Positions 7,304 through 62,427 of a DNA stretch of 64,000 nucleotides are shown here, one piece after another. The notes under the pieces are model-generated. The model was not told the origin of the DNA, searched no databases, and worked only from the letters and a program-made list of their open reading frames with translations. How positions within the stretch are numbered: position 1 is the first letter of the stretch; each line of letters begins with the position of its first letter. The translations under genes were made by a program, and so were the position numbers. The DNA comes from Prorocentrum cordatum (Eukaryota; Sar; Dinophyceae; Prorocentrales; Prorocentraceae), in NCBI GenBank assembly GCA_963575745.1, contig CAUYUJ010019886.1, forward strand, positions 38,501-102,500, read 5' to 3'.

Positions 7304-10300
7304 ATGGCCGAGGCCAGCACCACGAGCACTTCTAGACTCAGTGGGCTCACGGGCTCGCGCAAGAAGACCCAGCTGGAAGTGCTGCAGCACCTGGTGACCA
7401 AGCACATTACGGACCCGTCCCTCATAAACCTGGCGAATGCGAGCGACTTTGGGATCACGTCCACTGAGCGTGGCATCTCCCGCTACGAGAACACCCACCT
7501 GGTGGCAGCGTTGGACACGCTGTTAGCCTACCAGCGCGACCGGCGTGCCAAGGCGCTCGGCGGTCTCGCCATCATGAGGAGGTCGTACACACACGACCCC
7601 CGGACACGATTGATAGAGCTCCTGAAGCGGTGGTTGCGGGCCAGCGCACCGAACAAGGACGTTCTGGAAGAGGAAGTGCACAGAATGTGCATGCTTTGTC
7701 GTGACATCCTCAATCACCCAAACCTGTTCCCGTCTCGCAACACTAGAAGCTTCATGCAGACGCTCGCGGAGGTCTACCAGCACCTGCAGGTCCAGCTGCG
7801 GGAAGTGCTGGAGAGAGACCGCACGTGCGCGGAGCTGGCAGTGCGGTGCCTCTCCCTGAGCAGGAACCTCATCGCCGACGCCATCATCTTCCTGCTGGTG
7901 GCCACCACTGACCTGGGGAAGACGGACAAGCTGCCGTCGGTGGAGGTGGTCGCGCTGTGGCAGTCCCTGCCCAGCGAGACGAACCCGCTGCCGAGCCGCG
8001 CCGATGTGGCGCTGCAGAAGCTCATGAAGGAGGGCTGGCAGACCACGTGCGGTGCGGTGGTGGCCCGACTGCTGAGCATGCCGTCCACCTTTCGCGTCTT
8101 CGACTCCGCGGGGGCCGAGGCTGAGGCCCAGGCCTCGAGCGGCTTCACGGCCGCGGGCGGCGCCACGGGCTCGACCAGTCAGCCGGCGACGGCGGCGGAG
8201 ATCGGTGGCGAAATCCGAACCCTGCCCTCGCCCATCCATGATTCAGGCAACTCGATGGGCGGCGGGGGTATACGATTCGGAATTCGCCGAGCGTTTTGGC
8301 GAAACCCGAATCCTGCCCCCGGCTCCCATCGATTCTGGAGAATCGGTGGTTGGGGGGGGTAGGATTCGGATGTTGCCGCAGGAGACGGCGCTGGTGTCCG
8401 CAATCGCGGCGGACAGCGTGACCACTTTCTTCGCGGAGGTCCGGCAGGAGCTGGAAAGGGACGCGCTCAAGGCGAACTCCGGCTTCGCGGGGCCCTTCCG
8501 GGAGGCCCGGCTAAAGAAGTTCCGGCTGACGTTCGTGGACGCAGCGGAGACCGTGTTCCACCTGGTCTACCTTCTGGGCGAAGTGCTCGTGCACTTCCAG
8601 AGGATCAGCGACGGAATGGGCGATTACGGCATGATCCGGGTGGCTCCGTGGCTCCACCCGTTCTTGGACGCGATCGTGGATAAGGTTCAGGAGGGGGAAG
8701 AGCACAGAGACACAATGAATCGGCGATTCCGAGGACAATATGGGCAAACATTGGAAAGGGGGGGGGGAAGACGGAAACCCAGAACATGTGGGAAGAGGTT
8801 GGAAGTCCTAGGAGTTGTGTCTGTTCGTTTGCGTGTCCCTGGGCCTCTCCACAAAGGTCCTCGGGCTGAAGGGGCACCTCGCCACGCTCAACGCGGGCAT
8901 GGACACCGAGCTGGTGTTGGCGAAGGCGCGAGGCCAGAAGGTGAAGAAGCCCATCCCGACAGAGATCCAGCTCAGCCGAGCGCACGGTGCCATCGAGCGC
9001 GCCGTCACGGCACGGGAGAGCCACTCGGCGCTGCTGGCGAAGGCCATCGAGGACCTGCGCTCGCGCTCGGCGCCGGAGCGCCTGCCGCACATGGTCGAGG
9101 GGATACACGACGCCTGCATGCAGCTGGAGCACGTGTTCGCCTCCCCGCAGTTCCGCGAGTGCGTCGGCGACGCCTTCCCCGACCTGCCGGCCCTGACCGA
9201 GATGGCGGCGGCGCGGACGCAGCCCACGCTCTTCGACGCCGACGACGGCCTCGCGCTGGCGGGGGAGGCCTTCGAGGGCAGCGACGACGAGGAGGACAAG
9301 CAGAGGGAGCGGTCCTGGCTGTCCTCCTCCGCGAGCGGGCGCAGGCAGAGTACGGGCTCGGGCGAGGGCAGCAGCTGGCGCCACCGCGAGAGCTCGCTGC
9401 GGCGGCGCGCCTACGACACGGTCGTGCAGGGGCTGGGCTGCAGCGCCCCTGGAGCTAGCCAGAGCCAGGAGTCAGAGGAGGAACAGGTGCCCATACCTCT
9501 GCCCTCCGCCCGTGTTCCCCTCTTCGGGCCTCCTCGGAGGCCCTCGTCGCCACCGTTGGATTCGCCTCGAAAGTCTGGTCAGCACGCACCCCGGGAGTGG
9601 TCCAGGGAGTAGCGGTATCGGTACCTGCCTTGTGGTTTCCCCAAGGAGGTGACGCTAGCTGGCAGGTTCCCTCCAGAGGACACCGGCCTCCCACCTGACG
9701 GCTGGGTCTGCCGCCATGGCCCCGGAGGCCGTATCATGTGGCACCACACGTCGCTGGGCCCGGCGCCGTGGGAGTTGGAGCAGACCGAGGCCAGCGCCAC
9801 GCCTTCCGCCGTCAGCCCTCGCTCCGTGGCCTCCGGGCCCTCGCCCTTCAAGCCGCCACGTCCGCAGGCCGCGGCCTCGCCCTTTGCGCCCGCTTCGCGG
9901 GAGCGGCCGGCGCCGGTGCAGTGGCTGGACCTGGACGAGCGCGAGTCGCCCCGGTCGCAGAACACCGCGCCGCCACAGCCGCAGCTGGACAGGGAGGACA
10001 CGGACGCGCAGCAGTGGGTCCCAGCGCCTGCTGCGGCGCGCCCAGCGGCGGCGGCGGCCAGCGCCGCCTCCTCTCCCGCGCCGTCGCATTGCACCAGCCC
10101 GAGCCTGCCTCAGTCGGGTTGGTCGGGTGCGCCACCCTCGCCGCCGTGCCTCTCGTCACCGACCAGCCTCACTGCGGAAGTCTATAGGCTCGCCCGCGGG
10201 TCGGGGGGCATCTCGCAGCGCCACGACCGTCGAAGACTGATCCTGGAGGGCTGCAAGTTGCATGTCTGCGAGCCTGGCTCGGTGGACCAAGTGAAGTTTT

Positions 10301-10572
10301 CTCTGGACCTCGCCAGCGAGATGAGCGAGGTCGTGCTGCTCCCCCACGGAGTCCTGTCGCTGCAGCTGCGGCTCCAGCAGCGCAGGAGGTCCTCGTCCAG
10401 GGTGCGCTCGCTCGGGTATGCCCGGATGGGGGGGCCGGCCGCTGGGGCGCCGGAGGAGAAGACGTACTCCTTCGAGTTCGACCCGCCAGGCGACGCGGCC
10501 GCCTTCCGGGCGGAGATCCTCAAACGCAGGGCGGTTGTTTGCAGGTCGCCGCTCGCCCAGCCGACACTGTGA
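7304..10572 (+). CDS. four-exon gene: helical protein with WW-like motif and C-terminal PH-like region
   Basis: The best intact gene here. Proposed exons are 7304-8197, 8382-8684, 8857-9486 and 9646-10572, giving about 917 residues and ending in TGA. The frame is continuous only if three inserts are removed; the third contains an in-frame TAG. Residues 1 to about 610 are mostly helical and charged, and I do not recognise the fold. Exon 4 begins with a WW-like motif (LPPDGW, GRIMWHH, PWE), then a Pro/Ala/Ser-rich linker. The last 120 or so residues look like a PH-type domain: short strands (RRLILEGCKLHVCEPG, KTYSFEFD) and a final helix (AAAFRAEILKRR). Such an arrangement suggests a peripheral membrane or scaffold protein, which is inference. 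Start choice: first ATG with good context after a possible leader acceptor. The first intron's ends are ambiguous (see its entry). Confidence 0.75.
8198..8381 (+). mobile_element. intron 1 of the 7.3 kb gene: double fold-back, introner-like (F13)
   Basis: The reading frame shifts across this stretch, so it must be removed. It consists of two related fold-backs in tandem, 8207-8288 and 8299-8378. Each opens with GGCGAAA, CCGAA and CCTGCCC and closes with its inverted copy. Frame-consistent ends are GA...AG (8198-8381, with GGAGA at both junctions) or a G-slipped GT...GG (8205-8382). A plain GT-AG pair does not keep frame. GA and GC donors are known in dinoflagellates. The element fills essentially the whole intron. 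Confidence 0.65.
8685..8856 (+). mobile_element. intron 2 of the 7.3 kb gene: F9 introner-like element
   Basis: A phase-0 GT-AG intron between codons AAG and GTC; removing it restores the frame. Its entire length is similar to 31070-31240, including TCAGGAGGG near the start, CAATATGGG, GAAACCCAG and TGTCC(C)TGGG near the end. Lengths are 172 and 171 bp. The element and intron boundaries therefore agree. Flanks GATAAGGT and ACAAAGGT match at 6 of 8 bases and may be a worn target duplication used as splice sites. Confidence 0.75.
9487..9645 (+). mobile_element. intron 3 of the 7.3 kb gene: F10 introner-like element
   Basis: A phase-0 intron opening CAG|GTGCCC; it contains an in-frame TAG at 9610-9612. 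The acceptor is CCAAG| (ending 9645) or GGAG| (ending 9648); both keep frame. Its sequence is similar to 26253-26561 once an F8 insertion is subtracted there, sharing CCCATACCTCT, GGGCCTCCT, CCTCGTCGCCACC and TTCGCCTCGA. The centre has a hairpin, GGGCCTCCTCGGAGGCCC. Confidence 0.7.
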
Positions 10573-14150: not shown

Positions 14151-14790
14151 CTTTCACGTTTGACGGATACGTGTTGTTGATCCATTCTGCGGCGCACATG
14201 GCATCTTTCCATTTGAAGTGCCCCTCCCGTTTTCGCACCCTGCTTATTATCAGGGGAAGTCTTTAGGGTCAAACTGGCCCCCTAGCCCCCGAGCTTCAAC
14301 AACAACGGCTCCCGCCTGGTCCTGATCCTTCCTCACAATGTATGGCAACATCGCTCTCTCGCGCAGGACTTCCCTACAATTTGTTCCTCACACTTTTTCC
14401 AAACGCCGTCGCCCTCGACGCTCAGGAGTCGCGCTCTTGTTTTGGTTTTTCTTGCGGTTCGCTCGGGAATCGCGCTCTCGCTCGAGACTTCGCGATTCAT
14501 GCAGGACTCACGCTTCAGCAACCGTCCTGCTCGGCCTGGCCACCCCGGCTCGCCTTCCCGACCCGCCCGGTCTGCCCGTCTGGTTCTGCCATGGGTTTTC
14601 TGCGCAGGACCCCCTTCCTGCTACTGTCTCTCGTGCTCCATTTTTCTCCCCCCCCTCCGTCCGTCCTCTTCTCCCCCGCTTTGGGGGCTGCGCTAAATGC
14701 ACGTGGCAGGTAAGAAAGATTTGCCCAAAAGGGGGTACGATCGAAAACGAAGACGAAATAGGAACGAGCAGTGTTAAAACGATTGTTGTT
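14150..14790 (+). repeat. F5 dispersed repeat, unit 1
   Basis: F5 is the main repeat of the 14-35 kb region. A full unit runs: (TTG)n; a block ending CTCGCACCCTG; CAACAACAACGGCTCCCGCC; several loose subrepeats of GGAATCGCGCTCTCGC and GACTTCCTC; a pyrimidine-rich block; GGGGCTGCGC; then CGATCGAAGACGAAGAGG, and GAACAGT before the next (TTG)n. This unit lacks a strong TTG array but has the rest, with GGGGGCTGCGC at about 14683. It has no coding capacity and is not similar to any element class I can name. Confidence 0.75.
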
Positions 14791-15690
14791 GCTGTTGGTG
14801 TCGCATTCTGCTTCAAGGAATGCCTATGGTTTTCATCCCTCAGGTGACCGTTATATGTGTCAATTGAAGTGTTCCTCCCGGGGCTCGCATCCTGCTATTT
14901 ATCATGGGAAGTTCGTGGTCACCAAATGGCGCCCCGGGCACCTGGTTTACAACAACAGAAACGGCTCCCGCCTAATATTTTGTCAATGTATTTCAGATTC
15001 GTGCTCTCACGCGGCACTGCCTCATAAGTTGTCCAGGAATCGCAGTCTCCCGTGGTATTCTCTCACACTTTATTGCGGCGCCGTGCCCGCAAGACTCATG
15101 AAGCACGCTCTCGCTTTGGATTTCCGATCAATTTACTTGGGAATCACGCTATTGTTCGGAACTTCATTCGTGATGGGTTGACGCTTTAGCGACCCGCCCG
15201 CTCGACCTGGCCGTCCGGGCCCGCCTGGCTGAGTTGCCCGTCAGGGCCCGCCCGCCCGAGACGCGAGGCTGTTTCTGCCGCTTGTGCTGCTGCTCCTGAC
15301 CCTCCTCTTCTAAAGTTCTCCCGTGTTCCATCCTTATCCTTCCTTTTTGTGTCTTCGCTCCTCCCCCATTCCCCTGTTTTAGGGGCTGCGCCAACTACTC
15401 GCGGGAGGCAGGGCAGATATCCCCCCCTAAGATGGGGCACGATCGAAAACGAAGAGGGCGGGTACCCAGGGTTTGGGATATACGTGTGTAGTGGCACGCG
15501 AGCAGACAAGAACGAGCAGTGTTAAACTTGATGTTGCTGGTGTCGTCATTGCTGTTGTTGATGAATAGGGACGGGTCACGGCCCCTGGGCGCCCCCCCCC
15601 AGTAACAGCAGCAGCAGCAACAGCAGCAACAACATTGCCGACGGCTCCCGACCGAGCTTTCTTCGCAACGTACTCATTCCCCCTCAGGTA
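14790..15690 (+). repeat. F5 dispersed repeat, unit 2 and the head of a further unit
   Basis: Unit 2 occupies about 14790-15530, with the GGGGCTGCGCC core at 15382. A truncated head of the next unit (TTG-rich, then CAGCAGCAACAACA and GACGGCTCCCG) runs to about 15690. Confidence 0.7.
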
Positions 15691-17811: not shown

Positions 17812-18660
17812 GGTTGTTGTTGCGGGGGGTCGTTGGTCGTTGGTGCCCCTGGTGGCCGTGGAGGAGCCTGGCCTCTTCCATGGAGGAGAGCTCCAGTCGG
17901 CCCCCGAGCCCCGGGTGCCAAGGAAGGTGCCTATCCTTGTTGTTGAATTTTGCACTATTGAAGAATTATTTCTGTTGGTCCGCCCCCCTCCGGTGACCAT
18001 TGTGTTTTTAATTGAAGTGTTTCCCCCAGGGCTCGCACCCTGGTTTTTAACAGGGAGAGTGAATGGGGTCAAACTGCGTTGCTGATCCCGAGCTACAACA
18101 GCAACAACGGCTTCCGGCTGATACTTCCTCGCATGTCATTCTCACATCGCGCTTGCGCGCGGGACCTCCTGACAATTTAATCAGGAATCGCGCTCTCGCG
18201 TGGGACTTCCTCAGACGCCTCGCCCTTGACATTCAGGAGTCACGTCCTCGCTGTGGATTTCCTCACGATTGATTTGGGAATCAAGTTGTCGTTCGAGACT
18301 TGCGACTCATGCAGAACGCGCGCTTGAGCAACTCCCTTGCTCGACCAGGCCGCCTGGGCTCTCCTTCCCGACCCGTCTGGTAGGGTCTACCCGCCCAATC
18401 TGCCCATCTGGTTCTGCCACGTGTTTTCTGCTCCTAGCCCGTGCTCCATCCTCCTCCCTCCCCATTGTCCTTCCTTCCATCCGTCCTCTCTTCCCCTGCC
18501 TCAGGGGCTGCGCGAAATACACGCTGCAGGTAAGAAAGAGATACCCCCTAACGGGGGTACGGTCGAGGACGAAGAGGGCGGGTATCGTGGGTTCGGGATA
18601 TTCGTGTTGAGTGGCCCCCGCGAGCAGATAAGAGCGGACAGTCTCAACCGGATGATTGTT
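17750..18660 (+). repeat. F5 dispersed repeat, unit 3
   Basis: A complete-looking unit. It has a (TTG)n head (17764-17815), the CTCGCACCCTG block at about 18030, GAATCGCGCTCTCGC subrepeats at 18100-18300, CAGGGGCTGCGCG at 18503 followed by GCAGGTAAGAAAG, and the CGAAGAGGGCGGGTAT tail. Confidence 0.8.
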
Positions 18661-19470
18661 TTTGAATATTCATTTCCAGAGAATAATTACGGTTGTCTCC
18701 AGCAACGGTTCCGCGCGCTCTCGCCTCGACGCTGGCTACATTTTCTCTGAAAGCGAGGTTTTTGTGCGAGCGTTAGCTTGAGTGTAAATGTGGGCCCTTG
18801 GAGGCCAAGCTGCGAGGACAACGGCTCCCGCTCGAGATGTCCTCACAACTTACCCCGAGACACCGTGGCCAGAGAGGCCCCCGGGACTCAGGAACGGCGC
18901 TCTCGCTCGAGACCTCTTGGCAAGTCAGCCAAGCTGGCGGAGGCCCAGCGACGACGACAAGGGCTTTTGCTCGATACTTCCTCACGAATTACTCCGAGAG
19001 CCCCTGGCCACTGGTTAGGAAGGCCCCCGAACTCAGAAACGGCGCTCTCGCTCGAGACCTTCTCGGAATTCAGTCAAATTGGTGGAGGCCCAACTACGAC
19101 GACAAGGGCTCTCGTTCGACACTTCCTCAAGATGTACTCGCAAGAGGCTCTTGCCAGAGAGGCCCCCGAACTCAAGAGCGGCGCTCTCGTTCGAGACTTC
19201 TACGTAATTCAGGCAAGTTGGTGGAGGCCCTGACACGGCGACAAGGGTTCAAGTTCGATATTTCTCCATATGTATTCCGAGAGCCCCATGGCCAGAGAGG
19301 TCTCCGAACTCAGGAACGGCGCTCCCGGCGCTCTCGCTCAAGAGTTCCTCGCACTTCAGTCGGTGGCAAGATATTCCCCCCCGCAAGGGGGTGCAATCGA
19401 AGACGAAGTCGGCGGGTATCGAGGGTTGGGGTTTACGTAATGCAGGACACGCGTGCCAGTAAGAACAGTC
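18660..19470 (+). repeat. F5 unit 4, containing a ~142-bp tandem repeat
   Basis: The subrepeat zone of this unit is expanded into about four tandem copies of about 142 bp (18826-19345). Each has ACGACGACAAGGGCT, CACTTCCTCA-like, GCCAGAGAGGCCCCCGAACT and AACGGCGCTCTCGCTCGAGA segments. The F5 tail (CCCCGCAAGGGGG, CGAAGACGAAG) resumes at about 19375. Confidence 0.75.
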
Positions 19471-19479
19471 GAAAAATGA

Positions 19480-20325
19480 TCGGTTTTGTTGTTGTTGTTG
19501 TCGTTGTTGTGGGTGTAGTTGTTGTTGTTGCTGCTGCTGCTGTTGTTGTTGTTGGTGGTGGTTTTGCGTTTGTTGTTGCTCATGTTGTTGCTGAAGTCTC
19601 ACTACTTGAGAATAAGTATTGTTGATTCCCTTTCTCCGGGCCCCATTTTGTTTTTCACTTCAAGTGTTCCTCTTGGGATTCGCACCGTGTTTTTTCGATG
19701 GAAAGCGCAGTGTCACCAAACTGGGCCGCTGGCTTTTAATTTACAACAACAACAACAACAACGGCTGCCGCTTGATAGTTCCTCACAGAGTATGTCCAAA
19801 TCGCGTTCTCGTGCGCGACGTCCTCACAGTTTTACACCGGAATCGCGATCTCGCGTGGGACTTCCTAGCAATTGATTCACACGCCGCGCCCTCGACACTC
19901 AGGAATCACGCTCTCGCTGTGAATCTCCTCGCCATGTATTTAGGACCCGCGCTGACAGGTGAGAATTCCTCGCGATTCATGCAGGACGCATGCTTCAGCA
20001 ACCCGCCTGCTCGACCTAGCCGCCTGGGCCCGCCTTCCCGACCCGCCCATTAGGGTCTACCCGGCCGATCTGCCTGCCTGGTTCTGCCACGTGTTTTCTG
20101 CTCTTTGTCCCCCTCCTGCTACTCTCTCTCGTGCTCCATCCTTATCCCTCCACATTCCATCCGTCCTCTCTTTCTCTGTTTTAGGGGCTGCGCCAACTAC
20201 ACGCGGCAGCTAGGGAATCTATACCCCCTAAGGTGGGTACGGTCGACAACGAATATGGCGGGTACCGAGGGTTTGGGATATACGTGTTGAGTGGCATGCG
20301 AGCAGGTAAGAGCGAGTAGTCTTCA
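19480..20325 (+). repeat. F5 dispersed repeat, unit 5
   Basis: TTG/TGCTGC head at 19486-19580, then the CACCGTG block, (CAA)n CGGCTGCCGC at about 19745, GGAATCGCG subrepeats, TTAGGGGCTGCGCC at 20182 and the usual tail ending near 20320. Confidence 0.8.
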
Positions 20326-20834
20326 GATGATTGTTGTTGTTGGTGCTGTTGTGGTGGTGGTGGTGATTGTTGAATTCTCATTTCTGAAGAACAATTACTG
20401 CTGATCCCCCCCACACCGGTGCATACTGTCTTTCTCAATCAGAGTGTGCCCCCCGATGCTCGCACCCTGTTTTCTACCAGGGAGAGTCTTGAGGCTCAAA
20501 CTGGGCCCCTGGCCCCCGGGTTACAACAACGACGGCTCCCGCCTGAGACGTCCTCACAATTTGGGCAGGACCCTCGCTCCCGCCCGAGATTTCCTCGCAT
20601 TTGGTTCAGACATCGCGCTCTCGCTTGGGACTTCCTGACGATTTATTCAGGAATCGCTCTCCTGGCGCTCTGGAGTCGCGCTCTGGCTGGAGACTTCCTT
20701 GCAATGTACTAAAGATTAGCGCCCTTGCTTTGGAATTTCCTGCAATTTACTCGAGCGCCGCGCTCCCGACACCCAGGCACCCAGGAGTCGCGCTCACGCT
20801 TAGGACTCCCTCACAGATTACCTAGGAAACGGGA

Positions 20835-23890: not shown

Positions 23891-24719
23891 CTGTTGAATA
23901 ATAGGTGTTGTTATTCTCCCTGGCCCAGTACACCTAGTGATTTTCTATTCCAGCGTTCGTCCCAGGGTCCGCATACTTTCTTTTATCAGGAACAGACTTG
24001 GTCCTCAAATTGTTCTCGCGTGGTACCTGCTGACAATGTATTGCGGCGCCTTGTCCACAAGACTCAGGAGTCACGCTCTCTCGTTGCATTTCCGCACGAT
24101 TTACTTTCGATTCGCGCTATTGCTCGAAACTTCCTCGTGACTCACGTTCGATTTACGCTTCAGCGACCAGCCCGCTCGTCCCGGCCGTCTGGGCCCGCCT
24201 TCCCGACACGCCCGTCAGGGTCTACCCGCCCGATCTGCCCATCTGGTTCTGCCACGTTCTTTCTGCTCCGAGCCCTTTCTCGCTGATCTCCCTCGTGCTC
24301 CATTCTCGGGCCGAACGAAAGGGGGGGATAGGGAAAGGGGGGGGGGGAACGACATCTGCTGCATGCAGCTGGTTTCGGCCTCGCCGCCGGGCCCATTCCT
24401 CGATACACGGGCGCCTCCCGGCGCCGGGAGGCGCTTGGAAAGTCAGCTACGTGAGTTGATTCTCTATCCTACCCTTTGCTATCCCCCTTTCGTTCCCCCC
24501 GGCATTCTTCTCTCTCCCCCTTCCATCCGTCGTCTCTTCCCCCGCTTTAGGGGCTGTACTAAATCCACGTGGCAGGGAAGAAAGATATACTCCCAAGGGG
24601 GACGATCGAAGACGAAGAGGGAGAGCACCGAGGATTTAGGATACGCGTGTTGAATTGCACGCGAGCAGGTAAGAGCGAACAGTCTTGAACTTAGTATTGT
24701 TGTGTGTTGTTGTTGTTGT

Positions 24720-26252: not shown

Positions 26253-26561
26253 GGTACCCATACCAGGGCTGGACCCAAACGGTGTTTTTGGTGACTTCGT
26301 GGGCCGTTTTCGCTTCGACTCCGTTTTGCGGTACAGGCGGCTTCGAGACAAAAGCGAGGGAGAAACCAAGACGAACACGAAGAACGCCGCTCAGGTTCAG
26401 CCCTGACCCGTACCTCTACCCTCCTCTCGTCTTCCCCTTCTTGGGCCTCCTGGGAGAGCCTCGTCGCCACCAATCGGCTTCGCCTCGACACGTCCTGGGC
26501 CTCCGGCAGAGGTCCGGGGAGCGCGGCACCGGTACTTTTTTTTTGCGTCTCCCCGGTGCAG
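26253..26561 (+). mobile_element. F10 element, copy 2, split by an F8 insertion
   Basis: Starts AAAG|GTACCCATACC and ends in a pyrimidine tract plus GGTGCAG at 26561, parallel to the donor and acceptor sides of intron 3 of the 7.3 kb gene. The body after 26407 (CCTCGTCGCCACC, TTCGCCTCGA) is similar to that intron. An F8 element sits after the first dozen bases. This may be an intron of a gene I could not reconstruct. Confidence 0.65.
26265..26406 (+). mobile_element. F8 TIR element, copy 1, nested in F10
   Basis: 142 bp with inverted ends AGGGCTGGACC and GGTTCAGCCCT. The flanks CCCATACC (26257-26264) and CCCGTACC (26407-26414) match at 7 of 8 bases, which is a convincing worn 8-bp target duplication. 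Copy 2 at 36840-36982 is 143 bp. Confidence 0.8.
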
Positions 26562-26892: not shown

Positions 26893-29842
26893 ATGTTCGC
26901 CGCCGGAGACGACCACACGGTGCTGCTCAGGTCGAAGAAGGAACAAAAACACGAACATCATCTTGTGGCGCTCCGCGCAGATCTCTTGGATCCGCGCTGG
27001 GCCCCCCCTGGTGCGCTCCGCGCGCCAAAGAGGAGTGTCCAGCGCAGATCTAAGAAATCCGCGCGGAGAACCAAAGGTTTATGTTTATGTTTTTTCCCTT
27101 TTCCTAGTAGGAGCGATGGCACCGCGGTGGCCTGCGGCGAGAACCTTCGTGGTCAGTGCGACATTCCCGCGCTGGTCGCCGACTTGAGCTATCATCAAGT
27201 TGCCGCCGGAGGGGCACACACGGTGCTGGTCCAGAGCGACGGCACCGCGGTGGCCTGCGGCTGGAACGATTTTCTGCAGTGCGACCTTCCCGCGCTGGCC
27301 GCCGACCTGAGCTATTTGCAAGTTGCTGCCGGAGAAGCCTTCACGGTGCTGCTCAGGAGCGATGGCGCTGCGGTGGCTTGCGGCCGGAACTGTACGGGTC
27401 AGTGCGACCTCCCCCCGCTGGCCGCCGACCTGAGTTACACGCAAGTGGCTGCCGGGAAGGACCACACCGTTCTGCTCAGGAGTGATGGCATTGCGGTGGC
27501 CTGCGGCCAGAACGGTGACGGTCAGTGCGACCTCCCCGCGCTGGCTGCCGGCCTGAGCTACACGCAAGTTGCCGCCGCAAGGTGTCACACGGTCCTGCTC
27601 AGGAGCGATGGTGCCGCTGTGGCTTGCGGCCAGAGAGGTCAGAGACAGTGTGACATCCCCGCGCTGGTCCCCAACCTGAGCTATGATGGTGGCCTTCGGC
27701 GTGTGCCGCCGACCTGGGGCGCTCCCAGCGCAATCACACACGGGCCGAACGAGTCTTGTGGTGTTCTTGGCGCGTGGCCATTGTGTGGGTGTTTCGGGAC
27801 TCCCTGGAGTGTCGGTCAGCGTAGGCTCCAAGGAGATCAGAAGACTGAAATGAAGTGGACAAGGGTGGACTGAAGTAGGCTGGACTGGAGTAGACTGAAC
27901 TGGACTGGGTGGACTCTGCTCCGCTCTGCTCTCCTCTACTCTACTCTGGCCGGCTCTATTCTAACATCTACCCTACTCCACTCTACTCCCCCCACCCTAC
28001 TCTACTCTACTCTACTCTACCCTACTCTACTCTCCTCTCCTCTACTCTACTCTACTCTACTCTGGCCGGCTCTATTCTAACATCTACCCTACTCCACTCT
28101 ACTCCCCCCACCCTACTCTACTCTACTCTACTCTACTCTACTCTACTCTACTCTACTCTACTCTACTCTACTCTACTCTACTCTACTCTACTCTACTGCT
28201 CTGTTCTGCTCTGCCCTACTCTGCGCTGCTCTACTCTACCCACTAGTGGAGCAGGAGCTTCGCCTTGAGCCCCACTGATTCTTGTAGAACTCACACGTCG
28301 ATCAGCGGATTTGCAAGTAGCTGCAGGGGGAGACCACACGGTGCTGCTCAGGAGCGATGGCACCGCGGTGGCCTGCGGCCGGAGCAATTTTGGTCAGTGC
28401 CACCTCATCCCGGTGCTTCGTGCCGACCTGAGCTATACGCAGGTTGCTGCCGGAAGAGACCACACGGTGCTGCTCAGGAGCGATGGCACCGCGGTGGCGT
28501 GCGGTTTGCCTGATGATGGTCGGTGCGACCTCCCCGGGCTGGCCGCCGGCCTGACTTACACACCTCATTTGCTGCCGGCGCTCCGCCGCCGTACTCTGCC
28601 CACATCCACCGCCTCGGAGTCGTGCCCCGAGCTCTCGAGGAGCCCTCGGGACGCGGCCCCGCGGCAGTGGATGGATGGTCGCGGTCTGGCGGCGCAGGCG
28701 GTGTTCCTGCAGGCGCTGCTCGACGGCGACGCGGTGCGCTTCGTGACGCTCGGCGGGGCGGAGCTCGCCAGAATCAGGGCGGACCCGGCCGCGCGCCTCG
28801 CGGACCTCTCGGAGGAGGGCCAGTCGAGATTCGGGGAAGAAAAACGCCATAGACGTAAGCTTTTGGCGCTCCGCGCGGGTTCCGTGGATCCGCGCTGGGC
28901 CCCCTGGCGGCGCCTCTGGCGCCGTCCCTGGCGCGCTCCGCGCGCCAGGGGGTGGTGGTCCGGCACGGATCCAAGGGATCCGCGCGGAGCGCAAAACGTT
29001 TACGTTGATGCCGTTTTTCTCCTTCTGAAGATAGCAGCGGTTCTCCCGCCCAGCAGTCCAGGTCCGCTCGAAAGTGGTCCCCTGGCCCCTCCTGGGGTCC
29101 AACCCGCTTCGTGGTTCGACATGGACCCGTCCTGGGGCCCTCGTGCATTCTGTGCTCGACGTATGATGTTCCAATCGACTTTAGCCTTGACCACCAGAAA
29201 GAATTTCCGAGCGTCAGGAAAGCACCGAAACTGCAGTATGTCCACGTGTCGGGCCTTGGGAGCCGATATTCGTTCGACACTGCTTCGATACTTTTCTGGG
29301 TGCTCGAATTTTTTTTCTGGGATGTGGTCCGTAAGTACGATGGGAGCAACACAAGCATTGCTGTGAAAAAGGAAGCAAGAGATGCCTCCCCAAGAGGAGG
29401 AGGAGGAGGAGGAGGAGGAGGAGGAGGAGGAGGAGGAGGAGGAGGAGGAGGAGGAGGAGGGAGGAGGGAGGAGGGAGGAGGGAGGAGGGAGGAGGGAGGC
29501 GGAGGGAGGAGGAGGAGGAGGGGGAGGAGGGGAGGCGGGAGGAGGATGGGCGCAACACAGTGCTCGCCACGGATGTCCCGCCGGGGCGGCGGGAGGCGCC
29601 TCTCGCAGGGAGCCCGGCAGGCCCCCCCCGGAGCACGCCGAGGGCCGCCCGCGCGCCGCGCTGTCGCCTCGCCGGGCCCTCCTCCGAGCCTCTGCGGCCA
29701 GCTGGCGGCCGAGCACCGGGCCCGCAGGCTGGGCCTCGGGGCCTGGTGCGTGGACGCGGTCCTGCCGGGGGGGCGGCCGCTCAGCGGGGGGGAGCGAAGG
29801 ACTGCCAGACGTGTCACCACCCCGACCTTCCAGGAGGGCTAG
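26893..29842 (+). CDS. RCC1-repeat (regulator of chromosome condensation-like) protein, four-exon model
   Basis: Seven RCC1-type repeats of about 41 residues each share DHTVLLRSDGTAVACG and QCDLPALAADLSYTQVAAG. Seven is the classical number for one RCC1 propeller, though these units are shorter than in RCC1 itself. Proposed exons: 26893-26930, 27111-27679, 28306 to about 28829, and 29702-29842. The first junction is precise: removing 26931-27110 restores LLRSDG. The second is probably a GC-AG intron (27680-28305); GA is possible. Past the propeller come AAQAVFLQALLDGDAVRF and, after the third intron, LAAEHRARRLGL and VDAVLPGGRPLS, a helical and beta-strand tail. Role unknown; family members include guanine-exchange and scaffold proteins. 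The true start may be upstream, since the frame stays open from 26617. Confidence 0.7.
26931..27110 (+). mobile_element. F1 introner-like element, copy 1 = intron 1 of the RCC1-like gene
   Basis: A 180-bp GT-AG intron, CTCAG|GTCGAAG to CTAGTAG|GAGCG. It cuts the conserved LLRSDG motif within its Arg codon, and splicing restores it. Internally it is a fold-back: GCGCAGATCTCTTGGATCCGC pairs with its inverted copy AGATCTAAGAAATCCGCGC, around a CGCTCCGCGCG hairpin. A pyrimidine tract precedes the acceptor. Four further F1 copies are at 28.8, 30.1, 46.9 and 62.8 kb. Its length is a multiple of three and it has no in-frame stop, so failure to splice would still give a readable protein. Confidence 0.85.
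27920..28200 (+). repeat. (CTCTA)n pentanucleotide array inside RCC1-like intron 2
   Basis: CTCTA/TACTC pentamers with a longer 117-bp duplicated segment (CTGGCCGGCTCTATTCTAAC at about 27946 and 28063). It lies between RCC1 repeats 5 and 6, in the sequence that must be spliced out. Confidence 0.9.
28830..29028 (+). mobile_element. F1 element, copy 2 (within RCC1-like intron 3)
   Basis: Starts TTCGGGGAAGAAAAACG, parallel to GTCGAAGAAGGAACAAAAAC in copy 1, and ends TCTCCTTCTGAAG. The outer arms GGCGCTCCGCGCGG and CCGCGCGGAGCGC pair. Between them are two GC hairpins, GGCGCCTCTGGCGCC and CTGGCGCGCTCCGCGCGCCAG. It begins where the RCC1-like exon 3 ends. The intron seems to extend on to about 29701, so the element may have been followed by a second insertion. 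Confidence 0.75.
29395..29545 (+). repeat. (GAG)n / (GGAGGGA)n purine tract
   Basis: GAG triplets grading into GGAGGGA units. It lies in the third intron of the RCC1-like gene model. Confidence 0.9.
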
Positions 29843-30868: not shown

Positions 30869-31069
30869 GAAGCCACGCCCAAATGCACTCCCGCTTGATC
30901 CGAGTGTGAAGCGCTCCCCGCCCATCCCGCCCGCCCCCCCCACGGCCAGCAAGCCCCCCCAAGCGAGGCCCCGGGGGCGCCCACGGAGCTCCCGAGAGTG
31001 AGCCTTCGACGACGGCCCCGCAGGCCCTCGAGACAGCTCCAGGGACTCGCAAGACGGCCGAACAGCAAC

Positions 31070-31240
31070 AATCAGGAGGGAAAGAAACACACAGACACAA
31101 TTCATCGTCGAGTCCCAGGAAAATATGGGAAAATATGGGAATTGGGCGGGAAGACAGAAACCCAGGAAATATGGCAAAATATGGGGAATCCTGTTATTTG
31201 TGTGTATTTATTTGTGTGTCCTGGGGCCCCTTCAAACAAG
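31070..31240 (+). mobile_element. F9 introner-like element, copy 2
   Basis: 171 bp, similar end to end to intron 2 of the 7.3 kb gene (8685-8856). It lies between GCCGAACAGCAAC and ACAGCCCCGAGGGAGGCCC. The paralogous segment at about 31850 has the same outer sequence with only about 19 bases between GAACAG and GGGAGGCCC. This looks like a filled site next to a related empty site. Confidence 0.7.
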
Positions 31241-31642: not shown

Positions 31643-32159
31643 GCTCTCCTTCTCCTCTCGTCGTCGCTATCATCCGCCACATGAGATCCGAAAAATTGTT
31701 GTTATTCTCCAAACATGTTCTCCGTACTTCCTCTAACGATCACTTCATCCGCGAAATGACGCAGCCCCGAGAAGCCTCCCAAATCCTCCGGAGGGCGCCC
31801 AGGGAGTTCCCGCCCAGAGGCCTTCATGTCGGTTGCGGGGATTTCCACGACGGCCGAACAGGTCATCAAGAGGGCCTCAAGGGAGGCCCATTGGGGCCAA
31901 TCCTGCTGGAGCGCTCCCCGCCCATCCTGCCCCCCCCCCGGCCAGCAAGCCCCCAAGAAGCCCCCTCAGAGGCTCCCAGACGGCCTCCGGTACGCTCCCC
32001 GGCCCTGTTTGGTACGCAGTGCTGTGGACCTGCCGCGGTGTCGCCAGGTCCCGAGGTGTCACCCGCCGCCGCCGCCCGCTCGGCGTTGGTCCTGGCCGCG
32101 CCATGCCTGTTTCGCCCTATGCTTGCGCGGACGCCGCGCCAGCAGATGGCACCAGGCTG

Positions 32160-32890
32160 CTTTGTGTAGAAAGAAAAGTCTTGAGGCTCAGATTGGGCCC
32201 CTGGCCCTCACAGGTTATTTCAAAATCGCGGTCTCGTGCGGGACTTCCTCACAGTGCATGCAGGAATCGCGCTACCGTGGGGGACTCCCTCGCAATTTTT
32301 TCAGACGCAGCGCCCTCGACGCTCAGGAATCATGCTTTCCCTTTGGCCCCTCTCGCATTTTACTTGGGAATCGCGGTATCGCTCGAACCACTCTTCAGCA
32401 ACCCGCCTGCTCGACTTGGGCCAGCCTTCCCGACCCGCTGGCCCTCCCGATCTGCCCGTTTATTTCTGCCACGTGCTTCCATCTTGCTCATTCCTCTCGT
32501 GCTTCATCCTTCTCTTTCCCCCTTCCATCCGTCCTCTCCTCCCCCGTGCTCCGTCCCATCCGTCTTGCTCTACTCGCGAGTGACAGACAAGGAAGGTATG
32601 CCCCCATGGGGGGTGCGATCGACGACGAAGAGGGCGGGCACCGAGGGTTCGGGACACGTGGCGAACGGCACGTGAGCCGATAGGAGCGAACAATCTTAAA
32701 CGGAATGTTGCCGTTGTTGTTGTTGCTGTTGTTGTTGTTGTTGTTGCTGTTGGTGTTGTTGTTGTTGCTGTTGTTGTTGCTAGTGTTGATGTTGTTGTTG
32801 GTGTTGGTGTAGTTGTTGGTGTTGGTGTTGGTGTTGGTGTTGGTGTTGTTGTTGTTGGTGTTGTTGTTGAACATTATTCCTTCTAAAGAA
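32160..32890 (+). repeat. F5 partial unit 10
   Basis: Starts in the GTCTTGAGGCTCAGATTGGGC block, runs through GGAATCGCG subrepeats and CCCCCATGGGGGGTGCGATCG at about 32600, and ends in a (TTG)n tract at 32710-32870. Confidence 0.7.
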
Positions 32891-34079: not shown

Positions 34080-35060
34080 GGGTAAAATGATTGTTGTTGT
34101 TGTTGTTGTTGTTGTTGCTATTGCTGCTGTTGCTGTTGGTGTTGTTGTTGGTGTTGTTGTTGCTGCTGTTGTTGTTGTTATTGTTGCTGCTGCTGTTAAT
34201 GGCGCTGGTGATCTAGTTGTTGTGGTGGTTGTTGTTGTTATTGTAGTTGTTGCGGCGGTGGTGGTTGTTGTCGTTGCTGCTGCTGCTGATGTTGCTGATG
34301 TTGCTGCTGCTGTTTCTGTTGCTGTTGCTGCTGTTGTTGATGTCTGATTTGTAAAAAATAATTGTTGTTGCCCCCCTCTGGTAACAGAAGTATTTTTCAC
34401 ATGAAATGCCCACCATCGGGGCTCGCGCCTTTTTTATCAGAGAACGCTTGGTGTCACCAAACTGCGTTGTTGGGCCGCGAAATACAATATCAACGGCTCC
34501 CGTCGGACCATTCCTCACGATCTATTTCCAAATCGCGTTTTTGCACGGGAGTTCCTCACAAGTTATGCAGGAATCGCGCTCTCGCGAGCGATTTCCGAGC
34601 AAATCATTCTGACGCCGCGCCCTCGACATTCAGGAATCGCGCTCTCGTTTTGGTTTCTCTGGCGATTTTCTCGGGAATCGCGCTTTCGTTCGAGCTCTCA
34701 TCGCGATTCGTGGTGCACTCACGCTTCAGCAACACGCATTCTCGACCTGGCCGCCTGGGCCCGCCCTCCCGACCCGCCCGTTAGGGTTTTCCCGCCCGAA
34801 GGGCCCGTCTGGTTCTGCCACGTGCGTTCTGCTCCCAGCCCACCCTTCCTGCCAATCCCGCGTTCCATCCTTATCCCTCCCCCTTCCATCCGTCCTTTCT
34901 CCCCCTGTTTCAGGGGCTGCACAAGTTACACGTGGCAGATAATGAAGATATACCCCCAGGGGGGATTCTATCGAAGACGACAGCGCGGTCACCGAGGGAT
35001 TGATATATACGTGTTGAATGGCACGCGAGCAGGTAAGAGCGAACAGGCTTACAATGTGTG
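34080..35060 (+). repeat. F5 dispersed repeat, unit 11
   Basis: (TTG)n head at 34087-34340, the GGGGCTCGCGCC block, ATCAACGGCTCCCG, GGAATCGCGCTCTCGC subrepeats and CAGGGGCTGCAC at 34911. The tail is CCCCAGGGGGG, CGAAGACGACAG, GCGAGCAGGTAAGAGCG. Confidence 0.8.
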
Positions 35061-36593: not shown

Positions 36594-36829
36594 GAAATGG
36601 GGGGCGATGGAAAAAGGTGTACCTTTTTTGTGCCTTCAGAGGCGTCCTGAGGGGCCTCCTTTCTGGGGCCCAACAGTAGCACGAGAGATGCACGCTTCTG
36701 TGGGCGGTGCGCAGTACGGGGGCGATAACTGGGGGGAAGGAAGGTGCACCTTTTCTGCCCCGAAGGTGCTCTGAGGGGGCCCCTTGTCCCCCCGATGTAT
36801 CGCCCTCCCATTTATTGCCCCCCCCCACA
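36594..36829 (+). mobile_element. F11 fold-back element, copy 2 (longer)
   Basis: The left arm GAAATGGGGGGCGAT with AAAAAGGTGTACC is mirrored by GGTGCACCTTTT and ATCGCCCTCCCATTTATT on the right. It is separated from the next element (F8 copy 2) by only a few bases. Confidence 0.5.
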
Positions 36830-36839
36830 AACACACACG

Positions 36840-36982
36840 AGGGCTGGACCTAAACGCTGTTTTGCTGGACTTCGGCTGTGCTTTGTTTTCCGTTTTGGCA
36901 AGGAGGTGCAGGAGAACAGGCAGAGCAAAACGAACAACAAAATGAAGACACACGAAAAACAACGTTTAGGTTCAGCTTTTGC
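36840..36982 (+). mobile_element. F8 TIR element, copy 2
   Basis: 143 bp. AGGGCTGGACCTAAACGCTG on the left pairs with CAACGTTTAGGTTCAGCTTT on the right. The flanks CACACACG and CACACACA match at 7 of 8 bases, but this is weak evidence because they are simple sequence. Confidence 0.75.
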
Positions 36983-36984
36983 CA

Positions 36985-37710
36985 CACACACATACACTAG
37001 AGGTGCACATCTCTCCCCCCCATGTGCCGCCCCCCACGAAGCAGCACCCAGCCGTTGCGCCAGGCTCGTGTCATCTCGCCGCGCTCAGCGGGGCGGCTCG
37101 GGCGTGCCGGGGCCCAGCATCGAAGAGGCGCAAACAGGGGCTAGTGCTCGCGGAGTAGGGCGGGTCCTGCTTGTTCGCAGAGTTGGCGCGCTCCGTCGCC
37201 AAATCGGGCGGCGCTGGCCCCATGCTCCGGGGGGGTACCTTACCCGACCTATGAATCCTGGCGCCAACGCGTCAGAGCCACCCCGCGCGTCAGGTCGCCG
37301 CGTTCGCTGGCGCAGCCTCGGTCGGGCAAATGCCGAGCGTCAGAGCCTCGAGTCATCGGGGCAGGGGGTGGTCAGGGATGGATCCTGATTCGGACCGCCA
37401 GCATTCGCGCCAGAGTTGCACTCAGCGTGAGTTTTCCGCGCTCGCACTCTGCCCCATGTAACTATGTAGGTACTGTCCAGTATTCTCCTGAAACGGGAAG
37501 TATGCCGGAACGCGCGGTTCCAGGGTTTCCCCGGATCATATTTTGGGAGCGCCAAGCTTTGTCGTATCCAGACCAGTTCTATCCTACTTAATTCGGGTGC
37601 CCAACGTTCGGGGAGGCCAGCTCGGACATGCTAAGGCCGAGCGCCATCTCGGGGGCTCACCTTCAGTCAGAGGAGGGCCAGCGGATCGAAGCAGATAACT
37701 TGCATAAGCA
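36985..37710. other. no recognised gene
   Basis: Mixed sequence, moderate GC, with no domain or repeat family seen. Confidence 0.4.
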
Positions 37711-42591: not shown

Positions 42592-45500
42592 GATGAGCAG
42601 CTGGCATACTCGTCGAGCGTCGATGACAATCATGGCCAATCTCTTTGGGAGCATGAAAGCACTACCAGCGTAGTCGGAGACTCATGCGCTTCTCTTTCGG
42701 CCATTACCTGTCCCTCGGCCACCCCATCGACGCAAAGTTCCAGCTCAACATGGAGTACAGTAGATAGCGCAGATTCGCGTGGACCAGAAGCGCCCACAAA
42801 ACCATTCTTGCTTGCGCAGCCGCTTCGAGTATGCACCTGGAATGCCCAGACTCTTTTTCACTCCCTTTCTGCCTCCCACAAGCACGGTGCGTCTCAATTT
42901 AAAGCTCTGGCCAGCATTGCACGGAAGATGGATGTAATTGTTGCACAGGAGACCCATGGTCAGGAAGGGGACCTTGAGACTCTGACCCGCGACTTTCCGA
43001 GATTCCGAGCCTTCGGTTCCTTCATTCAGGAGGCCCACGCTGGAGGTACAGCGCTGCTGGTCAGGGAAGAGCTCGCCGAGCAGTTCACGATGATAGATTC
43101 GCACGCGCTCGCGGCAGGTCGCATTCTCACGATTACTCTTTAGGGTCCGAAAGGTGTATTGCAGGTTACGAGTGCCCATCTGGATCCTGAGTGGTCTGAA
43201 CGAGCAACACGCGGTATTCTCCATTCTCTTTCTCGTTCCTTGCTCCCGCAGTTCCAGGCTATGAGTATTCTGCTAGGGGGCTTTAATTTCCATGAACATG
43301 GAGAACGCAGGCACTATCTTGAACCACCTGTTCCTAAGACATCGCCATCACGTTTAGCTACCATATTTGACTATCTCTTTCCCCATTACTCCGAAGTCGA
43401 ACAACCAGCCTATACTCATCGTGCATTCATACGCAATAAGCTGACATACGCTCGTCTCGACCGCATATACTGCAACGCTGACACTGTCACGCTACTAGAT
43501 TATCGGCCTAATACTGGAGTCCTCTGGGAGGTTACAGACAGGGGCAAGCCCTCTGACCACGTTCCAGTCTTTCTTTGCCTGCATGCTCTGCGGCCTGCAG
43601 TTACAGGTCAAGGCTCGATACCCCCGTGGGTGGCCAAGCATCCGCAGTTCGGTGAGTTTGTCGAGGATCTTGTCGCTACCACTGGGCTTTCGCCGCATCC
43701 CCCCACTGCTGCGCAGGAAGTTCAAGGGATATTTCACATTGCCGCTGGCCACACTCGGAGGTATGTCGAGATCTCAGGCGCCCGCACGAGGCCAGAAAAG
43801 ACAGCCTGCTGTCTCAAGCTTGTCCGTGCGGCGCGGTCTGGCAGCTTCTACCATGCTCGGCGTGCTTGTCTGGGCTACAGGCACCTCTTCACGTTTTTTT
43901 AACCCAGAGACGATGACCTGGCTCGGTCAAGGGCGGTTCCACGAGCATCTCAGTTCCACGATGCGTGAGGAGTACCAGGGGGAGGAGAGGGATGTGCGTG
44001 AGAACAATGAGCTAGGTTCGGAAGCTGCTGAGCAGGCCATTCGTCGAGTCAAGCGTCTCTCTGCTGCATGGGCTGCACGGCGGCCTCGTATTAAGCTTGT
44101 TGGCGTTCGAGGACCTCAGGGAGAGGTCCATACTGACCCAGAAGAGGCTGCTAGGCTTCTGGCTGACTACTGGGGCAAAGTCTTTGACAATGAAGACGAA
44201 GGTTGTCTTGGGGCTGAGCATGTTCTATTTCACATCCTGGAGGTTGACGGCACGGGGCCTCGATATGTCACCAGTAGCCACCAGAGATTCGACTGGGTCC
44301 TGACCGAGGAGCATTTCAACGGCTTGATCGATTTCAAGCGTGACACAGCCACGGGCCCCGATGGCGTTCCCTATTCCGCCTGGCAAAGGACAGGTAAGAA
44401 GGCGCGTGCTGCGCTTTATGCCCTGCACTGCCACGCCATGTCTGGTGGCAGAGTCGCCCCCAGCATTAACACCACTGCAGGGCTGTGATTCTGCCTAAAG
44501 GAGATGTTGTCCAGGGAGGGGGGGGGGGGGGTTCGTGATCCGCATGTCGTTCGACCCCTATCGTTTTCGAATACTGATGACAAGCTCCTCAGGTCCGCCA
44601 TCGCCTCGGTATTAAATCATGTCGCTGCTGAAACCTGCCGCGTCGTCCAGCGGGGGTTCGTCAAGGGGAGGATGATGAATGACAATACCATCAATATGGA
44701 TGGTCTGCTCACGCTTTGGGGCACCGCCTATAGGCACACGGAGTGCGGCTTCACGCCCTTCGATTTTAAGAACGCCTTCCCGAGTGTTTTTTTGCAGCTG
44801 GATCAATTGCGTACTCATTCGTATGAAATTGCCACCCTATCTCATCAACGCAATAGAGGAACTACATGGCGATATATGGACTTCAATAGTGCGGGGTGGA
44901 GGGAGGCATGGCTTCTATTCCTTTCGAGGGATGAAACAGGGATGTCCGCTCAGTGGTGTGCTCTTTGCACTTGTGCTGGATCCAGTGCTCCGCTACGTAA
45001 TTCAGCTGCAGGAGCGTCTCGTATTTCAGACCGGCGCCTTCGCCGATGACATTTACTTAGTCGCACGCAACCTCTGCAAGACCCTGCCGCAGGTATTGGT
45101 AAGGCGTGTGCTGTCAGGTAAAGTAACTGGGCTCACGCTTAACTATAAGAAATGTGTCATTGTTGTCTTGAACATGGAGGAGAAAAAGGATGTCCTGGAG
45201 GCCTTCCGTGGTCGGGGGCTTGATGTTTCCCGTTATCAGATTCAGAGGTCTGGCAAACTCCTGGGAGTCCAGGTCGGTGAGCGTGGTTTTCTTGACGCCT
45301 GGCAGCCTGTTGCAGTGAAAATTAAGAGCAGGACAGAGGACGCGCGGTGCCTGGGGCTGAGTTTCATCCAGTCCGTGCAGGCTTTCAACACCTACGTCGT
45401 CCCTGTCACATCGCATGTTGGGCAATTCTACCTGCCGTCGAAGGAACTCGTTCGTGCAGAACGAGAGGCGCACCAAAAGCTTCCTCGAGCGCCGCGGCAT

Positions 45501-46370
45501 GCTTTTCCTCCCAAGGCCATGTTCCATCTCAAAGAATTGGGTATTCCTGCGCAGTGTCGCTCTATGGAAACCCTTTGTCGCGCGCCCATGCAACGCTGTG
45601 CCATCCGCTCGGAAGAGTTTCATGCCATGCGCTCCATGTATAATGCTGCCCAGGAAGACGACAACAGGACCCTAACGTATAAGTGGAACCCGCACTTCCT
45701 GAATTCTATCTTCTGGAACATGCTTACCGAGTATAGCCAGTACATCAGAATCCCCGATGCCCCGATCCACGAGCCCCCGAAAAAGCTGCAGGGTATGATC
45801 ACGAAGTTTATTGTTCGACGTCAGCCCCATCACTTCATCAATCATCTTGTCCTTGCTCGTCTTCGCTATTGGCTACCACGTGCTACGCGCCAAGATGCTC
45901 AACTGACGGTTCTGAGGCTTAATATTCTAGCGAGGAGGCTGCCCAGTTTTATTATTACATCCCTTCTAAAAACCGTGCTCAATGCTTGGCCAACTACGAA
46001 GCGTTTCAGACAGGCCGCTGGGCCTTGTGTTTTCGGGTGCTGCAATTTAGGGGCCGACAATATCTCTCACTACGTCTCCTGTCCTGTTGTGGTCCCCCTC
46101 CTGAGGGAGCTCCTCCCCTCGCTCCCACCGGAGTGGGTGCATGTTGCGCCTTTCAATTTTCTCCCCCATCTCTGGCCGTCTCTTGAGCACACCCCTAAAG
46201 CGAGTGAGTTCATGCATGCCTGTGCCGTCGCCATTGACATTGTATTTTCTGCCTTCAATCAGCGCCGCAGGCGGGGAGGGCAGGATAGGGCTTTCGCACT
46301 CCAAGCAGTTCGAGGCCGCGCCCGCTGTTGTGCGTTTCGTCATCATGGAGTGCACTCTCTGCTGCGCTAA
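42592..46370 (+). pseudogene. LINE ORF2: apurinic-type endonuclease, reverse transcriptase, Cys/His motif (disrupted)
   Basis: Endonuclease motifs: VCTWNAQTL, IVAQETHG, TSAHLDP, LLGGFNFHEH (the usual GDFN has Gly for Asp), LDRIYCN, KPSDHVPVF. Reverse transcriptase motifs: TATGPDGVPYSAW, QRGFVKGR, FDFKNAFPSV (A), GMKQGCPLSG (B), GAFADDIYLV (C), GLTLNYKKC (D), LLGVQVG (E). The final CVFGCC...HYVSCP is a CCHC-like motif seen in such elements. Damage: in-frame TAG at 43141-43143; frame changes near the T7 run at 43894-43900, near 44481, at the G14 run 44518-44531 and at the T7 run 44787-44793. The stop at 46368-46370 is TAA. No separate start is evident; the frame continues from ORF1 through one TAG. 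Confidence 0.88.
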
Positions 46371-49255: not shown

Positions 49256-50330
49256 GTGTGGCAGCCTGGGCAGTGAGAGTGGCTTCGAAAACCGATCCCC
49301 TTGTTGCCAGCCTGCGGCACCAGCTAGGTCACGGTGGGGGCGTTCGTTAAAGACTGCCCTGGAGGCTTCAGACCCTGGAGGATTCCTTATCTGACGAGGG
49401 AGGCGGTGGCATCCATGGCCAAGCCTCACTTGGCGTTCCACTGGCTTCCAGACTCTTTGTTCCTCAATAAGTGGCTCCCTGTCCAATGCCCTCACCGAAG
49501 AGTGAGGAGCATCGGCAGCCAGCAGGCCGCCCACCCGGTGATTCGGCAAAGCCGGGCCGATGTGTTTTGTTCCCAAATGCGTAGCGTTTCGGTACAGTCC
49601 ACGCGTATAGTAGGGGTGAGCGCCCTTCCCAAGTATACCCTTGCATCCTTCCCCTTCGGCCCATTCCTGGCCACTTTCGCTGGCGCGCCCCGCTCAAAGA
49701 GTGTCGACATGGCCTTCCAAGGCCCTGGCATCCTCATCGTGCATCCTGGTGATGCGGGTTGACTGTAGAGGGTTCTGGTCGCGTGTAAGTGGGGTTCACA
49801 GAAGAGCACAACAGAAGCCCCATAAGGGGGGAACCAGGGAGCCCTAGGTCGCCCGGTTCACCCGAGACTGCCTCTTTCTTTATGCAGGAACCTTGCTCTC
49901 GCCTCAATGCCTGCCACATTTCTGATCCAGACGGCCACCATCGTTGGCAAAAGACACGAATGTGCACATAGCCGTAATTACTCTCACCCCTATCCCCGAC
50001 TTGCCCCGTTGCCTCTGTTGCTATTGCGAAGGCCGTACGGCCCGTGCCGCCGACCCTGAAGGGGCACGACGACAACGGTGGTGGCGGCGACGACGACGAC
50101 GCTGACGTGGGTCAGAGTCCTCATTCTGTTGAAATTCGGTGCTTTCCTGGGGCATTTTTGTTCTCGAGGTGAAGCCCTGCCCTCCGCAGGTCCGCTCCGG
50201 GCCCTGGGCCTTGGGGCCGTCGAAAGGATTCCTGAGATGATCGCCATGAAGCAAACGGGTCCCGAGCAAACCGGGACAGGCAGAAAGCGACTCAGTGCGA
50301 AGAGTTCGGCTTGGGGAAGAGTCGACTACA
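49256..50330. other. no recognised gene
   Basis: Non-repetitive sequence of moderate GC, unlike the microsatellite-rich surroundings. Frames are short on both strands and no motif is recognisable. Decayed retroelement sequence is possible but unsupported. Confidence 0.35.
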
Positions 50331-50334
50331 CGTA

Positions 50335-50517
50335 CCCATCGGTCGTTGAAAGTAGGTATTGTTGGATTTCCAGTTCCCAATCTATTTTACCCGCCTTCCT
50401 ACTTCAAGAGTCGAGTGGTTTTCCCTCTTCCCTCCTCTTCGGGAGGCGGGCGGAACCCCAATCTACTTCCGACGCCTTCTTACTTCGTGGCTCTGCCTAC
50501 TTCTGCCGACCGATGAG
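50335..50517 (+). mobile_element. F7 TIR element, copy 1, with exact 8-bp target duplication
   Basis: 183 bp, left end CCCATCGGTCGTTGAAAG and right end CTTCTGCCGACCGATGAG, inverted. TACACGTA flanks it on both sides (50327-50334 and 50518-50525). The interior has CGCCTTCCTACTT and GGGAGGCGGGCGGAA, shared with copy 2 at 61173-61354. Confidence 0.88.
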
Positions 50518-50525
50518 TACACGTA

Positions 50526-61165: not shown

Positions 61166-61172
61166 CTCGTTA

Positions 61173-62420: not shown

Positions 62421-62427
62421 CTTCTCT

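Follow-up and report, generated by a model that had tools for sequence, protein, structure and literature searches.

A four-exon gene and its spliced product

The window analysed here, a stretch of 64,000 nucleotides from Prorocentrum cordatum, contains a gene at 7304-10572 on the plus strand that encodes 911 residues after correction of its third intron. In the gene model, exon 1 (7304-8197) begins at the start codon chosen at 7304, although 7205 is also possible, and exon 4 (9646-10572) includes the stop codon. Exon 2 (8382-8684) and exon 3 (8857-9468, with a corrected 3' end) are defined by the model together with a database protein, P0001. A protein database search returned 89 homologues, and all those with a legible organism name are from dinoflagellates. 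Pfam yielded zero matches for the gene product, which was scanned as a 917-residue draft.

The reading frame is kept only if 8198-8381 (184 nt) and 8685-8856 (172 nt) are removed, and intron 3 carries an in-frame stop codon. P0001, a protein of 659 residues derived from a 2205-nt JGI contig, covers all three junctions. The spliced gene product matches it at 659 of 659 residues, with a single six-residue gap at junction 3. Unspliced, the genomic stretch from the first P0001 codon (8060) to the stop codon measures 2513 nt. As the contig is shorter than this, it does not contain the introns, and it is either a cDNA or, less likely, an intronless copy (retrocopy) made from one. The three introns of the gene are real at the protein level. 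An initial annotation, made from the sequence alone, had set their borders at 8198-8381, 8685-8856 and 9487-9645. The first two agree with both the frame and P0001, while P0001 moves the start of the third to 9469. Intron 3 (9469-9645) is thereby 177 nt long, the six residues absent from P0001 are removed, and the corrected model contains all of P0001 gap-free.

A second copy of the gene is present on contig C14854, at about 257000-260400, and is identical over 3184 bases (locus L033), introns included. A run of 100 N (690-789 of locus L063) lies exactly where the similarity to the window stops. Because of this identity and the position of the gap, the copy is likely an assembly duplicate, and we rejected it as evidence on intron age. 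Four stretches (L092-L095) taken at the expected places gave no match there.

Junction repeats and the three element families

Every junction of the gene carries an exact 5-bp direct repeat across the splice site: GGAGA at 8197-8201 and 8381-8385, AAGGT at 8682-8686 and 8854-8858, and AGGAG at 9467-9471 and 9644-9648. One element lies between the repeats in each intron (8202-8380, 8687-8853 and 9472-9643), and all three start with TC and end with CA. The borders follow G(T/A)-AG|G. Intron 2 is a GT-AG intron, and introns 1 and 3 read as GA-AG, an assignment that depends on the choice among several sliding positions inside the repeat. The earlier idea that element ends serve as splice sites does not hold: in introns 2 and 3 the donor and the acceptor both lie in the duplicated target, and only the A of the intron 1 acceptor comes from an element.

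Short repeats at junctions are to be expected, since dinoflagellate acceptors favour AG|G. When junctions with an AG|G acceptor are drawn at random, a repeat of at least 5 bases arises in 2.4% of draws with any G donor, in 6.6% with G|G and in 24% with AG|G. Taken by themselves, the 5-bp repeats of the gene are evidence of moderate strength, suggestive but not decisive; the strong evidence for insertion comes from the genome copies.

We searched 4,128,499,153 bases in 21,875 contigs for copies of each element. The first look returned 2432, 3353 and 4759 candidates for the families of introns 1, 2 and 3 (i1, i2 and i3), and in each family 40 of 40 scored candidates match, the window copy and its identical duplicate included. 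Sequences similar to each intron are present at many loci, as in introners. The consensuses of i1, i2 and i3 share no significant similarity (best E 0.14), which bears out the initial proposal that three unrelated mobile families supply the introns of this gene. Among 86 copies, 80 start with TC where aligned to the queries, which themselves start with TC.

For the duplication test, the 5 bases on either side of one copy were compared with each other, and those of different copies served as control. The 30 loci per family were the best-matching ones, not a random sample. Loci L003, L033 and L063 (the duplicate gene copy) and L029 (flanks as in L028) were dropped before the counts, as were the window's own copies from the duplication and target counts.

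The duplication is clearest in i3, whose element in the gene (9472-9643) reads TCAGAGGA...CCCCA. Among copies other than the window's, 13 of 28 have an exact 5-bp duplication and 22 of 28 agree in at least 4 of 5 bases, against 0.9% in the cross-copy control. Flank matches per position are 0.66–0.90 inside the five positions, compared with 0.23–0.29 in the control, and fall near the control outside them. Of the other 38 scored copies, 24 align with positions 1-172 at 87–89% (the rest over shorter stretches), which fixes the element ends and places 9487 inside the element. We considered whether an alternative isoform or a strain indel accounts for the six-residue gap at junction 3, with 9487 (GT-AG) also in use. 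The frame is preserved in either form, and GTGCCC could act as a donor at 9487, but the border at 9469 falls at an exact 5-bp duplication and at a genome-wide element end, and P0001, the sole same-species spliced protein found, supports 9469. We regard use of the 9487 donor as improbable.

For i2, whose element in the gene (8687-8853) reads TCAGGAGG...CACA, the duplication peaks at a 3' end offset of -2 among nine offsets scanned. There it is exact in 4 of 27 other copies and agrees in at least 4 of 5 bases in 10 of 27 (cross-copy control 2.6%); the unshifted end, as deduced from the copy in the gene, gives 0 of 27 and the next best offset, -4, 5 of 27. The i1 element (8202-8380, TCGG...CGCA) gives a peak only at offset +2 of the nine, with 4 of 28 other copies exact and 8 of 28 agreeing in at least 4 of 5 bases (control 3.8%), compared with 0 of 28 at the latter level for the unshifted end. 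A fixed-length target duplication, as expected of MITE-like elements, is thus seen at 5 bp in i3 and, more weakly and after a 2-base shift, in i2 and i1. Terminal inverted repeats, a further such feature, show clearly in the consensus of i1, lie subterminally in that of i3 and are weak in that of i2.

All three introns had been described as fold-backs, and this is confirmed only for the first. Intron 1 consists of two tandem units that are 73.6% alike, and the whole element is self-complementary (fold z -6.35), in agreement with its description as a tandem double fold-back. Its acceptor AG is composed of the element's last A and the first G of the right duplication copy. No significant fold-back was found in intron 2 (z +0.92) or in intron 3 (z -0.56, or -0.89 as corrected). 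The consensuses of i2, built without its first bases, and of i3 fold only at z -1.32 and z -1.56. Searches of a viral collection returned nothing for the i3 and i1 patterns, and a match to an i2 motif was rejected, as the similarity ends after 19 exact bases.

Two places in the window had been noted as similar to these introns. Intron 2 was said to resemble 31070-31240 end to end, and indeed it matches 31072-31234 over nearly the full length (73%, E 7e-23). This plus-strand i2 copy, which is outside the two genes recognised in the window, is flanked by an AACAA duplication (31067-31071 and 31235-31239) and has no G(T/C/A)...AG|G borders. No significant fold-back was detected at 31067-31239 (z +0.65). 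An uninterrupted relative of its site is present at 31838-32002 (76% over 169 columns). The proposed likeness of intron 3 to 26253-26561 is limited to 26404-26558 on the plus strand (E 1.5e-11), an i3-family relative; 26253-26400, to which it is joined, is a different palindromic element with a relative of its own at 36828-37018 (E 1.1e-9). We rejected the composite as a single relative of intron 3, since it comprises two elements. A 6-bp duplication around it was also rejected, with 1 of 6 bases matching at the coordinates tried.

The homologues bear on the age of the intron 2 target. The target AAG-GT encodes K-V, and the K is found in 88 of 88 and the V in 76 of 88 covering homologues (P0001 included), none of which has an insertion at the junction. 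This conservation points to a target that predates the insert. The same test is empty for introns 1 and 3: their sites fall in variable regions, and the junctions are covered by only 20 and 12 of the 89 homologues.

Further candidates for element-derived introns come from two other places. Locus L065 contains an i3 copy with a duplicated GAGGA (1496-1500 and 1669-1673) and coding-like flanks. Joined, the flanks read as what we take to be a membrane-channel-like segment, and Pfam returned nothing for its 99 residues. We consider L065 a candidate second i3 intron, in a putative channel-like gene. In the window itself, an RCC1-repeat gene is interrupted at 26931-27110 on the plus strand by a fold-back of family B (26927-27108, z -6.51). 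Three sister repeats read CTGCTCAGGAGCGATGGC unbroken, and removal of the interruption restores the repeat. The ends of this GT-AG intron share only AGG (3 bases, read by eye), and its acceptor is AG|G. On the repeat comparison, it is a predicted fourth element-derived intron, in a second gene. A search with the RCC1 protein found none near-identical to the window among the best 120 of 200 hits. A probable further intron of the RCC1 gene, with a CTCTA pentamer array, lies at 27690-28310.

A probable route from insertion to intron

Our data establish intron borders at the protein level, high-copy families, common element ends and 5-bp duplications. We consider it very likely that short DNA transposons of three unrelated families inserted into this one gene with 5-bp target duplications and are now spliced as introns. 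The elements would be non-autonomous and MITE-like, about 165-180 bp long with TC at the 5' end, and would have entered coding sequence by transposase-driven insertion, each duplicating 5 bp of its target. Where the target was spliceable, the first duplication copy would then provide the donor (GT or a relaxed GA), and the AG|G acceptor would come from the second. In intron 2, the left and right AAGGT both give AAG|GT, so that donor and acceptor derive from the target; intron 3 follows the same scheme with AG|GA. The acceptor of intron 1 combines the last A of the element with the right duplication copy. A target that ends in AGG can also gain a GT donor by using the T at the start of the element. 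Splicing would remove the element together with one duplication copy and restore the original coding sequence, and the insertions may have been retained because splicing made them nearly harmless. The introns would thus have been gained by insertion.

It is possible that the families are dedicated introners, selected for intron making and preferring AGG sites in genes. As such families would predict, the three introns of the gene and one predicted intron of the second gene are elements, and the i3 copy at L065 has coding-like flanks beside its duplicated GAGGA. The copy survey argues against this. We counted a 5-bp target as spliceable if it yields a GT, GC or GA donor and an AG|G acceptor beside TC...CA ends. 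By this measure 11 of the 83 sampled duplications are spliceable, compared with 26,832 of 233,100 flank 5-mers (11.5%); a less strict definition, applied to the real 3' flanks, gives 12 of 86, window copies included. A coding score above 5 was obtained in 9 of 172 joined flank readings (86 copies, both strands), of which six are from the three window copies and L065 and three from L068 and L039. With spliceable targets hit at this rate, there is no sign that the i1, i2 and i3 families seek or carry splice sites, and a specialised role is unlikely. They behave as ordinary MITE-like elements, which become introns where they land well. According to the initial annotation, genome copies neither enriched at intron positions nor sharing ends with the introns would refute its reading; the ends are in fact shared, while spliceable targets are not enriched in the sampled copies.

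Alternatively, the introns could be old, with the elements inserted later as passengers. Mobile elements inside introns are common in general, and the sampled i1 and i2 copies have diverged (mean pairwise identity 0.865 and 0.798). Each intron, however, consists solely of one element and one 5-bp copy. No element end is more than 4 bases away from its splice site, and the junction falls inside the repeat, an arrangement that a passenger in an older intron would not produce. We judge this sequence of events very improbable. Spread of the intron sequences by reverse splicing or another RNA route, which PMC9860276 describes as proposed for fungal introners that have neither duplications nor inverted ends, is hardly credible here: the targets of the AACAA-duplicated copy and of 72 of 83 sampled copies offer no usable splice sites, and inverted ends are present in the consensuses of i1 and i3.

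Insertion of DNA transposons, the reading we favour, has close precedents. Introners have already been published for dinoflagellates, as have multiple families per genome and GA donors, and the gene is a well-resolved further case. The initial annotation held that activity of several families in one gene would be notable, but surveys already in print count as many as 43 introner families in a genome (Gozashti et al. 2022, PMC9860276) and, for Polarella, 12,253 introns made by introners, with 15 families that reach 100 introns or more (review, PMC11453091). The dinoflagellate introners of Roy et al. 2023 (Curr Biol), as summarised in that review, are likewise intron-creating DNA elements with many families per genome. 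Gozashti et al. (PMC9860276) describe target duplications, inverted ends, splice sites derived wholly or partly from the duplication, and GA donors (there up to 40% of a family), all of which resemble our case. In their Symbiodinium example the duplication is 4 bp long and the element itself bears the acceptor, whereas here the duplication is 5 bp and contains both sites in introns 2 and 3. Amoebophrya introners (PMC7789003) resemble ours in their inverted repeats, in direct repeats of 3-5 nt that overlap exon borders and in non-canonical borders; over 60% of introns there are non-canonical without a clear border signature, unlike the G(T/A)-AG|G seen here. For P. cordatum itself, the portions of PMC10666404 available give an assembly of strain CCMP1329 of 4.15 Gb in 22,724 scaffolds (GC 59.7%), with GA donors at 23.8% and AGG acceptors at 79.7%. 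Introners were called there by repeat pattern, with no family, duplication length or copy survey in those portions.

The origin of new introns is a long-standing question. In this gene every one of the three introns can be interpreted as an insertion whose target site and element family are known, and the spliced product is available as well. With GT, GC and GA donors all accepted by the host beside an AG|G acceptor, roughly 1 in 9 random 5-bp targets would be spliceable at once. A tentative extension, to which we give somewhat less than an even chance, is that one transposition machinery (5-bp duplication, TC start) moves many unrelated MITE families in this genome, none of which carries splice sites, so that MITE traffic would act as an intron generator without specialised introners. 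In the literature consulted, where Roy et al. 2023 figures only through the review, neither a 5-bp duplication common to unrelated families of a single dinoflagellate nor a chance rate of hits on spliceable targets is described. With 11.5% of targets spliceable, relaxed donors and 5-bp duplications would predict the rate of dinoflagellate intron gain from MITE traffic alone.

Other elements in the window

Several further plus-strand elements in the window have 5-bp duplications. The element at 24306-24502 (duplication CATTC) breaks up a repeat and is absent from six aligned relatives of that repeat; uninterrupted relatives of the insertion site are known for this element, for 31072-31234 and for the RCC1-gene intron. 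Elements that start with TC lie at 58811-58990 (AGTTG), 62425-62627 (family A, TCTTC) and 62791-62988 (family B, TGCTC). Two further family A copies, starting at 36324 and 10775, show duplications of 4 of 5 bases by eye, while computation at other offsets gave 1 of 5.

Scanned de novo for inverted ends with exact 5-bp repeats, the window gave 111 hits versus 75.75, and 12 versus 5.9 with a TC start. A stricter scan gave five hits with exactly 5 bp, three of them starting with TC, against a mean of 0.75 in four shuffles. As the excess is modest, we rejected the idea that the 5-bp duplication plus TC could be recognised de novo in the window as a signature.

No transposase was found among 21 proteins from the window scanned with Pfam. 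An open frame of 563 residues at 44679-46367 on the plus strand contains a reverse transcriptase domain (PF00078, E 4.4e-13) and perhaps belongs to a LINE-type element. An interspersed repeat of ~600 bp is present in a single orientation at 14233-15542, 17940-18664, 19763-20345, 24014-24692, 32206-32710 and 34370-35051, its pieces being roughly 64–83% alike. Finally, an element at 50327-50525 has an exact 8-bp duplication (TACACGTA), inverted ends (CCCATCGGTCG/CTCATCGGTCG) and a relative at 61172-61348 (80%), and is of a different class from the 5-bp elements.
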